The position numbers were made by a program, and so were the translations under genes. Under the pieces are notes generated by a model. That model was not told the DNA's origin and searched no databases. It saw nothing but the letters and a program-made list of their open reading frames with translations. Positions 6,315 to 19,056 of a stretch of DNA of 62,617 nucleotides are shown here, piece after piece (the stretch's first letter is position 1; each line of letters starts with the position of its first letter). The DNA is from Candidatus Nitrosocosmicus sp. (GTDB lineage Archaea; Thermoproteota; Nitrososphaeria; Nitrososphaerales; Nitrososphaeraceae), in contig JAICXY010000006.1 in assembly GCA_025934495.1 (NCBI GenBank), positions 1 to 62,617 on the forward strand. The letters run 5' to 3'.

Positions 6315-8096
6315 ATGAATCAAGCCAATAAAACAGTTCTCGTTACCGGTAGTGGAACTGGAATAGGCCAAGCCATTGCTAGGAAATTTGCAAAACTGGG
6401 ATATAATATAGTAATCTTAGGAAGAAGAAAAGAACCATTGATAGAAGCATCCGAAATTTTAAATGAAATTATAAAAAAAGAGGGACATGATACCATGGTA
6501 AAATATTACCCAGGTATTGATGTTGCAGATGAGAATGGAATAAATAGTCTATTTGATAAAATAAAAATAGATTTTGGAAAAATAGACCTAATAGTAAATA
6601 ATGCCGGCGTCTCTGGACCTGTAAAGATCTTTACTAATTCAAATTATCAAGATTTTAAAGAATGTGTATCTATTCACCTGACTGGAACCTTTTGGACAAG
6701 TATCAAAGGTTTAGAATCATTAAAAACAGGCGGCAAAATAATAACCATTTCAACCTTTTTTACAGAAGAAAATAAATTTGAACAGAGACCATATAGATTT
6801 CGAACGCCCTATACTGCAGCACAGGGAGCAAAAAATAGATTGACAGAGGCACTCGCATGGGAATTGGTTGAAAAAGATATAAAGTCTATAGGGACAAACC
6901 CAGGACCCGTACATTCAGACAGAATCTACAAAACAGTTTATCCAAAAGCTGCTGCGGAATTTTTGAGAATTGGAGGATTCAAAGGGTTAACAAATAAACA
7001 AATTGAAAGTGCAACCTTTGCACTGCTCCCTTTTTTAGGAGAGAAGCAAGGCATTATAGAAAATGAATCAATGAAAATAGCTGAAAATTTAGTAAAAGAA
7101 AATAATAAATCGGATTTAGGTATTGATGAATATAAAAAAATATTATTAAAACTTATGGAAAAAGTCCAAGAAATTGCTGAAAAGGTCCAACATAATACTA
7201 AAAAAATGATCGTTGATAAAGAATTTTTAACTCAAGAGGATGTTGCCGAAATGGTATATACTTTATCCTTGAATTCAATAAGTGATTTGATAAATGGTAA
7301 AATTATTCCAAATGATAATGTTTTTTATCCTGTAAAACCCATCATAAACAAAAGCATAGAATTAAATTCTGATTTATCACCCGAAGGAAGTTTAATACTT
7401 ATTACTACAACAACAAGAGAAATTAATGATATAGAAATAATAAAAAAAATTGCCGAAAAGCTTAACATGGTAAAAGTAAAGCAAATAATAATTCTTACCA
7501 ATAAAAATGAAATTTCAGACAAAGCTCAAGAAAAACTAAATGAATTTCATCATCATAGTATAGATTTTGGAAATGAAGAAGCAATAAAACGAATTTTTAA
7601 TACCATTAGAAATCGCTTTGGAAAAATTGATTCAACCATTCATTTTACAGGTAATTTTGATTATAATAACGATATCACAAAGCTATCAAGATTAGAATGG
7701 GATGGGCTTGTAAATAATTTTATAAACATTCCGCATTTGATCACCCGTGAATCAGTTTTATCAATGGCCACGCAAGAGGCTCTGGAAAATCCAGGCAAAT
7801 TTAAAGATTCTTTTGGAAATATAATTATCATAGGTCCAAATGCGCCGGTTGGGGAAAAAATAGAAGGAAAAATTAGAGCCCGATCCGAAATATTTCGAGG
7901 AGCTTTAAGACCTTATATAACAACAGCAAACCAAGAATTACACGATGTTTTAAACTCCAAAATTAATTTAACCTTGATTCTTCCAGGTAGTTTAGAAGGT
8001 ACAATGCCCAATTATACTAAATTAGAGAATTCATTAATAAATCTCTGTTCACAAAAAGAATTGAAAAATAATTTAATTATATATATAGATGAATGA
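6315..8096 (+). CDS. Tandem SDR-domain oxidoreductase, Mcr N-half-like
   Basis: A 593-residue protein with two short-chain dehydrogenase domains. Domain 1 (1-300) has TGSGTGIG at 11-18, NNAG at 95-98 and Ser146. At the catalytic YxxxK it reads Tyr166-TAA-Gln170, so the usual lysine is replaced. After it comes GPVHSDRIYKTVYP, resembling the PGP-SDRI block in the N-terminal half of the Chloroflexus bifunctional malonyl-CoA reductase. A helical linker (about 300-350) leads to a degenerate second domain that starts near residue 355 with LILITTTT instead of a glycine-rich loop. The two-SDR layout and length match the Mcr N-half, which reduces malonate semialdehyde to 3-hydroxypropionate. That role would fit the 3HP/4HB carbon-fixation cycle of these archaea but is an inference. 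ATG start. Confidence 0.75.
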   Translation: MNQANKTVLVTGSGTGIGQAIARKFAKLGYNIVILGRRKEPLIEASEILNEIIKKEGHDTMVKYYPGIDVADENGINSLFDKIKIDFGKIDLIVNNAGVSGPVKIFTNSNYQDFKECVSIHLTGTFWTSIKGLESLKTGGKIITISTFFTEENKFEQRPYRFRTPYTAAQGAKNRLTEALAWELVEKDIKSIGTNPGPVHSDRIYKTVYPKAAAEFLRIGGFKGLTNKQIESATFALLPFLGEKQGIIENESMKIAENLVKENNKSDLGIDEYKKILLKLMEKVQEIAEKVQHNTKKMIVDKEFLTQEDVAEMVYTLSLNSISDLINGKIIPNDNVFYPVKPIINKSIELNSDLSPEGSLILITTTTREINDIEIIKKIAEKLNMVKVKQIIILTNKNEISDKAQEKLNEFHHHSIDFGNEEAIKRIFNTIRNRFGKIDSTIHFTGNFDYNNDITKLSRLEWDGLVNNFINIPHLITRESVLSMATQEALENPGKFKDSFGNIIIIGPNAPVGEKIEGKIRARSEIFRGALRPYITTANQELHDVLNSKINLTLILPGSLEGTMPNYTKLENSLINLCSQKELKNNLIIYIDE

Positions 8097-18255: not shown

Positions 18256-19056
18256 TTAAAATAAGGTAAATCCATCAAAAAGTAATTTTATAGAAACAAT
18301 TATTAAAACAGCTGAAAATATTTTTAGTAAAATATTTGAAGGAACTATTGGAGATATTTTAGCACCAATTGAACCACCTATCAGCGAACCAATTGACAGA
18401 ACTATGCCTATAAAGTAATCTGGGAATCCATAATAAATATAAATTAATAGACCAGATAGAGAAGTAAATAACAACGCGAATTGAGATGTAGCAGCGGCCT
18501 GATTCATGTCGAAACCTAAAAGTATTATTAGCGAAGGGACAAAAATAATCCCACCTCCTATTCCAAAACTACTAGACAATATTCCGGCAAAAAAAGAAGA
18601 TATGACTATAAATAGCAATTTTATAAGGGAAATATCGTTTTTATTGACTATAACCTGATGATAATTAGTAGAATTGAAATGATTTTTATTTTTTAATTTT
18701 GATTTTAAAATTAGATAAATGGATGTAGCTATTAAAATAAAGGCAAAATAAAACCTAAATTCAGATAATGAGAACAATTTAGAAATTATAACCCCAAAAT
18801 AAGTTCCAGGTATAGAGGATACTGAAAGAATTAATCCTATTTTTTTAGAAAGTAATTTCTTTCTATAATAAAAAAAAGAAGAAGACAAACTGGTTGAAAA
18901 TACTGCCATCAAACTAGTAGAAGATATTTGCGAAGGTAAATAATTAAAATAAGATAAAAAAGGCGTTATAACAATCCCTCCACCTATTCCAACCATAGAT
19001 CCAATTATTCCAGCAAATAAAGAAATAAAAAAACCTAATAAAAATTCAATTACCAT
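18256..19056 (-). CDS. TauE/SafE-family membrane transporter
   Basis: A 266-residue integral membrane protein with about eight hydrophobic segments and the internal duplication typical of TauE/SafE. The half-repeats are marked by GIIGSMVGIGGGIVITP (about 17-33) and ILSSSFGIGGGIIFVP (about 158-173). The family exports or imports sulfite, sulfoacetate and related anions; substrate unknown here. ATG start. The next upstream gene on this strand is a small membrane protein 60 bp away. Confidence 0.88.
   Translation of the reverse strand: MVIEFLLGFFISLFAGIIGSMVGIGGGIVITPFLSYFNYLPSQISSTSLMAVFSTSLSSSFFYYRKKLLSKKIGLILSVSSIPGTYFGVIISKLFSLSEFRFYFAFILIATSIYLILKSKLKNKNHFNSTNYHQVIVNKNDISLIKLLFIVISSFFAGILSSSFGIGGGIIFVPSLIILLGFDMNQAAATSQFALLFTSLSGLLIYIYYGFPDYFIGIVLSIGSLIGGSIGAKISPIVPSNILLKIFSAVLIIVSIKLLFDGFTLF

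Follow-up and report, generated by a model that had tools for sequence, protein, structure and literature searches.

A candidate malonyl-CoA reductase of AOA: a tandem-SDR protein resembling bacterial MCR, with glutamine in place of the catalytic lysine

The window analysed here, a stretch of 62,617 nucleotides of Candidatus Nitrosocosmicus sp. DNA (contig JAICXY010000006.1), carries on its forward strand an intact ORF at 6315-8096, which starts with ATG and encodes 593 amino acids followed by a stop codon; all coordinates within this gene refer to that strand. This gene, termed MCR-like after the malonyl-CoA reductase (MCR) of green non-sulfur bacteria, is a real gene, and full-length orthologues without internal stops were found in four families of ammonia-oxidizing archaea (AOA). 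It lies between a luciferase-like oxidoreductase gene upstream, on the other strand, and a diphthamide-synthase family gene downstream. Pfam adh_short matched the protein twice (E 3.8e-38; best stretch, residues 6-202), and an AlphaFold2 model computed from 27 distinct orthologues (mean pLDDT 86.5, pTM 0.88) comprised two Rossmann/SDR domains with a helical stretch at about residues 202-318 between them. The loop at residues 148-160, before the active site, was the low-confidence part of this otherwise confident model. Domain 1 (residues 1-205; 6315-6929) is a catalytic-type SDR that the tree described below places in the MCR clade, and domain 2 (residues 355-593; 7377-8093) is a degenerate SDR, as judged from the model, whole-chain superposition and profile comparison. 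The layout read by the first-pass annotation, two SDR domains in one 593-residue chain with a degenerate second domain, was thus confirmed by the ORF, Pfam and the model.

The active site of domain 1 was compared across 47 aligned orthologues. The glycine-rich dinucleotide-binding loop TGSGTGIG (residues 11-18; 6345-6368) is mostly invariant. The GRR at residues 36-38 (6420-6428) is invariant and aligns with Arg41/Arg616 of Roseiflexus MCR, which bind NADP (PMC10470521); this points to NADPH as the probable cofactor. In MCR, the catalytic domains are SDR1 in the N half and SDR3 in the C half, and alignments identified Thr147 (6753-6755) as the equivalent of Thr165 in SDR1 and Ser731 in SDR3. 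Next comes a longer active-site loop, FFTEENKFEQRP (residues 148-159; 6756-6791), of the same length as in SDR3 and differing in length from SDR1 and the other SDRs compared. It leads into Y160-x-x-R163-x-x-Y166-x-x-x-Q170 (residues 160-170; 6792-6824), which corresponds in alignments to the malonate-binding motif of MCR (PMC10470521) with the catalytic Lys changed to Gln: domain 1 reads PYRFRTPYTAAQ, with Gln170 four positions after Tyr166, at the site expected to hold the catalytic Lys of SDRs. Further on, PGPVHSDRIY (residues 196-205; 6900-6929) provides Ser201 and Arg203, which match Ser213 and Arg215 of SDR1 in alignments and orthologues, Arg203 also matching Arg785 of SDR3.

Both the lysine replacement and a PGP/SDRI-like block common to the MCR N half had been noted from the letters of the window, and both observations stand. 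The block reads PGPVHSDRI (residues 196-204) in the AOA protein and PGPIDSDRI in the N half. Position 170 is Gln in 47/47 orthologues and therefore not a sequencing error. A merely structural role, which had also been raised, is unlikely because the active-site stretch, including Thr147, Tyr166 and the cofactor residues, is nearly invariant across AOA.

In place of the MCR extra domain, the model and orthologues delimit a helical insert (residues 206-305; 6930-7229) with conserved YPKAAxEFxR and AEKxQxNT blocks. An insert-only profile comparison found no significant sequence similarity between the two, and a model of residues 1-345 (domain 1 plus insert) matched ordinary SDRs, with no MCR among the matches listed. 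The view that the insert is a homologue of the extra domain, with Lys290 equivalent to Lys919, is unsupported by these two comparisons. Arg218 and Lys290, the latter from a whole-length alignment, are no more than possible counterparts of the CoA residues of the MCR C half (Arg799, Lys807, Lys919), and no clear counterpart of Arg1164 (SDR4) was found in AOA domain 2. The orthologue alignment did reveal a conserved basic helix in domain 2, GEKIEGKIRARSEIFRGALRPYITTANQEL (residues 513-542; 7851-7940), which might possibly contact CoA.

Phylogenetic analysis grouped AOA domain 1 with MCR SDR1 and SDR3 against 48 other SDRs, including those most like the AOA protein (bootstrap 99, SH-aLRT 89). The group was recovered in all 200 bootstrap trees, and SH-aLRT was 91 after removal of the motif columns. 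An earlier tree, for which 23 SDRs had been retrieved as relatives of MCR, gave weaker support (90/85) and was long-branched; it was rebuilt with the 48 SDRs nearer the AOA protein. Clustering of domain 1 with unrelated SDRs, named in advance as evidence against MCR resemblance, did not occur. The motif agrees with the tree: YxxRxxY, the malonate-binding motif of either half of Roseiflexus MCR (PMC10470521), was present in all complete MCR C halves, in all but one of the complete N halves compared and in 47/47 AOA orthologues. It was found in 0/81 other SDRs, among which Tyr at -6 occurred in 3, Arg at -3 in 11 and both in 0. In a column test, only Tyr160 and Arg163 separated AOA, SDR1 and SDR3 jointly from generic SDRs.

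The whole chain also resembles an MCR half. The top 24 rows of a Foldseek search with the whole-chain model were MCR halves or full MCR (TM about 0.7), followed by the tandem SDR 2et6 (TM 0.53), and VIA superposition on either half gave, for the leading MCR rows, Z about 34 over 489-518 residues with an rmsd of about 3.2 A. In phmmer against PDB sequences, two full MCR chains ranked first (E 2.7e-31); we rejected this rank as proof of kinship, as it sums two domains (48.5 + 61.2 bits). A generic SDR reached 71 bits with a single domain, better than either MCR domain, and a Chloroflexota SDR outscored MCR against the AOA profile. Because MCR scores no better than some generic SDRs when single domains are compared, the kinship rests on the tree, the motif and the whole-chain arrangement. 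The 593-residue protein is described as a probable variant branch of the SDR-type MCR family and not as a standard member, since its catalytic Lys is replaced by Gln170.

Resemblance to the N half in particular, as opposed to Chloroflexus-type MCR in general, had been proposed; the general kinship was upheld by tree, whole-chain fold and motif, and the half concerned may be either one. The tree leans towards SDR1 as the partner of domain 1 (bootstrap 92-94, SH-aLRT 23-79), with AU tests rejecting neither alternative (p 0.27, 0.43). SDR1-like states in domain 1 number 13, among them Thr147, Asn174, Ser201 and Ile204 (SDRI), against 8 SDR3-like states, and the per-domain profile scores are 203.6 for SDR1 and 181.6 for SDR3; on the SDR3 side stands the longer loop ahead of the motif, which carries a Glu and a Pro-Tyr. 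With the N half (SDR1-SDR2; malonate semialdehyde to 3-hydroxypropionate) the AOA protein shares the tandem SDR, YxxRxxY, Thr at the Ser/Thr position, PGPxxSDRI and the best-supported tree position, other placements not being rejected. It differs in having Gln for Lys182, a longer active-site loop and a longer helical insert, and in standing alone. With the C half (SDR3-ED-SDR4; malonyl-CoA to malonate semialdehyde) it shares the tandem SDR with a degenerate second domain, the whole-chain superposition, YxxRxxY, the longer loop and extra helices between the domains. It differs from that half in Gln for Lys753, Thr for Ser731, an insert of about 100 rather than 150 residues that lacks significant sequence similarity, the absence of a fusion partner and an identity of about 16% in superposition. 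Full Chloroflexus/Roseiflexus MCR carries four SDR domains and both activities in one chain, whereas the AOA protein is one tandem unit.

Two observations were made on bacterial MCR genes themselves. A 1197-residue MCR of a Chloroflexaceae bin (PL24a_bin.39; L065) has lost the N-half motif YxxRxxYxxxK (PLPYVAARAAL) and retains that of the C half; it is possibly a one-step MCR. MCR genes 66-73% identical to Roseiflexus MCR occur in bins named Planctomycetaceae, Gracilibacteria and Gemmatimonadaceae (L050, L063 and L064), reflecting either mis-binned contigs or transfer.

We compared the distribution of the gene with that of AmoA in 200 Nitrososphaeria genomes. The MCR-like gene was detected in 143, at one copy each, a few matches being truncated or fragmentary, and AmoA in 139. 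Both were present in 137 genomes and neither in 55; 2 had AmoA only (G151, G222) and 6 the MCR-like gene only (G000, G183, G190, G197, G210, G217), the latter all in AOA families. Neither the non-AOA families of the class in this set nor 250 further genomes of the phylum had the gene. The draft genome to which the window belongs gave no AmoA match, although it falls in an AOA family and carries a dehydratase-family gene. Small AOA genomes keep the MCR-like gene, one example being G169 (0.8 Mb). This phyletic match counts as one acquisition in the AOA ancestor, not as many independent events. The HpaB_N family, which includes 4-hydroxybutyryl-CoA dehydratase, is wider in the class than the MCR-like gene, which therefore tracks AOA and not that family. 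Non-AOA genomes with this dehydratase-holding family, without AmoA and without the MCR-like gene, were seen in families f10, f12, f19 and f20.

AOA fix CO2 by the 3HP/4HB cycle. Malonyl-CoA reductase activity is present in them, but its gene was not found (PMC6038301, PMC6964070, PMC4510362), succinyl-CoA reductase likewise lacks an assigned gene (PMC6038301), and a 2026 marker resource gives no MCR marker for the thaumarchaeal cycle variant (PMC12894919). Among the papers searched we found none naming an AOA malonyl-CoA reductase gene, though subscription papers could have named one. The nearest earlier hint that we found is the remark of Abby et al. (2018) on Nitrosocaldus SDRs about 30% identical to Chloroflexus MCR, proposed as candidates for semialdehyde reduction (PMC5797428). 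In N. maritimus, Nmar_1110 has been characterised as a malonic semialdehyde reductase (cited in PMC5797428, PMC4510362); Nitrosocaldus cavascurensis has no homologue of it (PMC5797428).

None of the other known reductase types covers the malonyl-CoA reductase step in all AOA. The semialdehyde-dehydrogenase family has exactly two members per genome, also in a non-AOA genome, and the ALDH family is absent from the complete AOA genomes G142 and G153. There was no separate LuxC, LuxC matches coinciding with ALDH genes. An Nmar_1110-type Fe-alcohol dehydrogenase gave a strong match in families f1 and f9, missing in f2 and f3; this enzyme, from Nitrosopumilus, acts in the same pathway at the next step and belongs to a family unrelated to the MCR-like protein. 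The Sulfolobales malonyl-/succinyl-CoA reductase, a member of the aspartate-semialdehyde-dehydrogenase family (the one with two members per AOA genome), would share the proposed step of the 3HP/4HB cycle, but its fold is unrelated, the AOA protein being an SDR by Pfam and not a semialdehyde dehydrogenase. As a separate observation, the absence of any aldehyde dehydrogenase family member in G142 and G153 leaves succinyl-CoA reductase there likewise unexplained.

The MCR-like protein is the leading candidate known to us for the AOA malonyl-CoA reductase, because it is single-copy in nearly all AOA, absent in the relatives searched and similar to half of MCR. We consider it somewhat probable (about 0.58) that it reduces malonyl-CoA to malonate semialdehyde with NADPH and forms a third, Gln-bearing branch of SDR-type MCR. 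We infer its substrate and direction, the CoA contacts and the role of Gln170 by analogy. As in MCR, domain 1 would bind NADPH through GRR and the glycine loop, and Tyr160, Arg163 and Tyr166 would hold the malonyl carboxylate. Hydride attack at the carbonyl of the thioester would release CoA as its thiolate, with CoA held by the insert together with the basic helix of domain 2. Another reductase, in lineages that have it the Nmar_1110-type Fe-alcohol dehydrogenase, would then take over the semialdehyde. Gln170 could hold the nicotinamide ribose but not relay protons, which would suit release at the aldehyde; thiolate release may need a Lys-assisted proton relay less than alcohol formation does. 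Both MCR halves use Lys at this position, and Lys753Ala abolished the activity of Roseiflexus MCR (PMC10470521); the role suggested for Gln170 is therefore a proposal only.

The first-pass annotation linked the protein to the 3HP/4HB cycle, a link that our data support, and suggested an alternative route to 3-HP by reduction of malonate semialdehyde, as in the MCR N half. The lean of the tree to SDR1, Thr147, Asn174 and SDRI, and the profile scores agree with that activity, as do the lack of a strong Fe-alcohol dehydrogenase match in f2 and f3, unlike f1 and f9, and the proposal of MCR-like SDRs for this step in Nitrosocaldus cavascurensis, where Nmar_1110 is missing (PMC5797428). The enzyme would, however, be redundant in lineages with an Nmar_1110-type enzyme, as N. 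maritimus already has; an alcohol-forming SDR is the kind of enzyme in which a missing Lys is most difficult to account for; and malonyl-CoA reduction, the step without a gene, would stay so despite a near-universal AOA gene. We regard this reading as unlikely, though the foremost of the alternatives. Ranked after it, and also unlikely, is a protein that resembles MCR by shared ancestry only, whether an SDR from a different pathway or a catalytically dead or regulatory protein. The missing Lys, the domain-level scores and the lack of observed clustering with cycle genes would fit such a protein, but a near-invariant active site across AOA and retention in small AOA genomes, with absence outside AOA, argue against it.

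We find it improbable that the protein is a succinyl-CoA reductase, or a dual malonyl-/succinyl-CoA reductase. The AOA gene for succinyl-CoA reduction is also missing (PMC6038301), as is the ALDH family in two complete AOA genomes, but the conserved YxxRxxY fits the malonyl group in both MCR halves (PMC10470521) and no feature suiting a longer chain was seen. Quite speculatively, and with as little probability, one Gln-bearing active site might take malonyl-CoA all the way to 3-hydroxypropionate (or serve both malonyl-CoA and succinyl-CoA) in AOA without the Fe-alcohol dehydrogenase, the stand-alone SDR then tracing back to about the point at which a duplication produced the two bacterial MCR halves.

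AOA are very abundant microbes. For some steps of their 3HP/4HB cycle, including malonyl-CoA reduction, an activity has been measured that lacks a gene. One testable candidate shared by nearly all AOA would contribute to completing the cycle and provide a marker gene for it. If malonyl-CoA reduction is indeed its function, one reductase family would be at work in bacteria and in archaea, in two cycles that evolved separately, and the exchange of Lys for Gln, invariant in AOA, would be informative about thioester reduction by SDR enzymes.

Finally, we looked at the surroundings of the gene; no clustering with cycle genes was seen. In 23/28 Nitrosopumilaceae genomes searched, the MCR-like gene is directly followed, on its own strand, by a gene of about 148 codons; G142, G153 and G177 are among the five that lack it. 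At two loci (L033:4491-4937 and L034:4495-4947, both on the reverse strand) this second gene lies 0-2 bases downstream and has no Pfam match. It resembles MaoC-like hot-dog proteins, the best PDB match being weak (1q6w, E 0.0014). The hot-dog fold commonly acts on acyl-CoA thioesters. No such gene adjoins the MCR-like gene in the window. A conserved protein of 125-135 residues with a motif near WGALxxYQxHFI adjoins the MCR-like gene in three AOA families (L041:6882-7289, reverse strand; L036:7092-7490 and L034:7055-7432, forward strand); none of the three had a Pfam match, and NCBIfam, applied to two, gave one weak match (TetR repressor, E 0.11, L041). A TauE/SafE-family gene is found near the MCR-like gene in several AOA families (L041:4175-4945, L036:2797-3714, L033:3551-4303), and the window has one at 18256-19056, 10 kb away.
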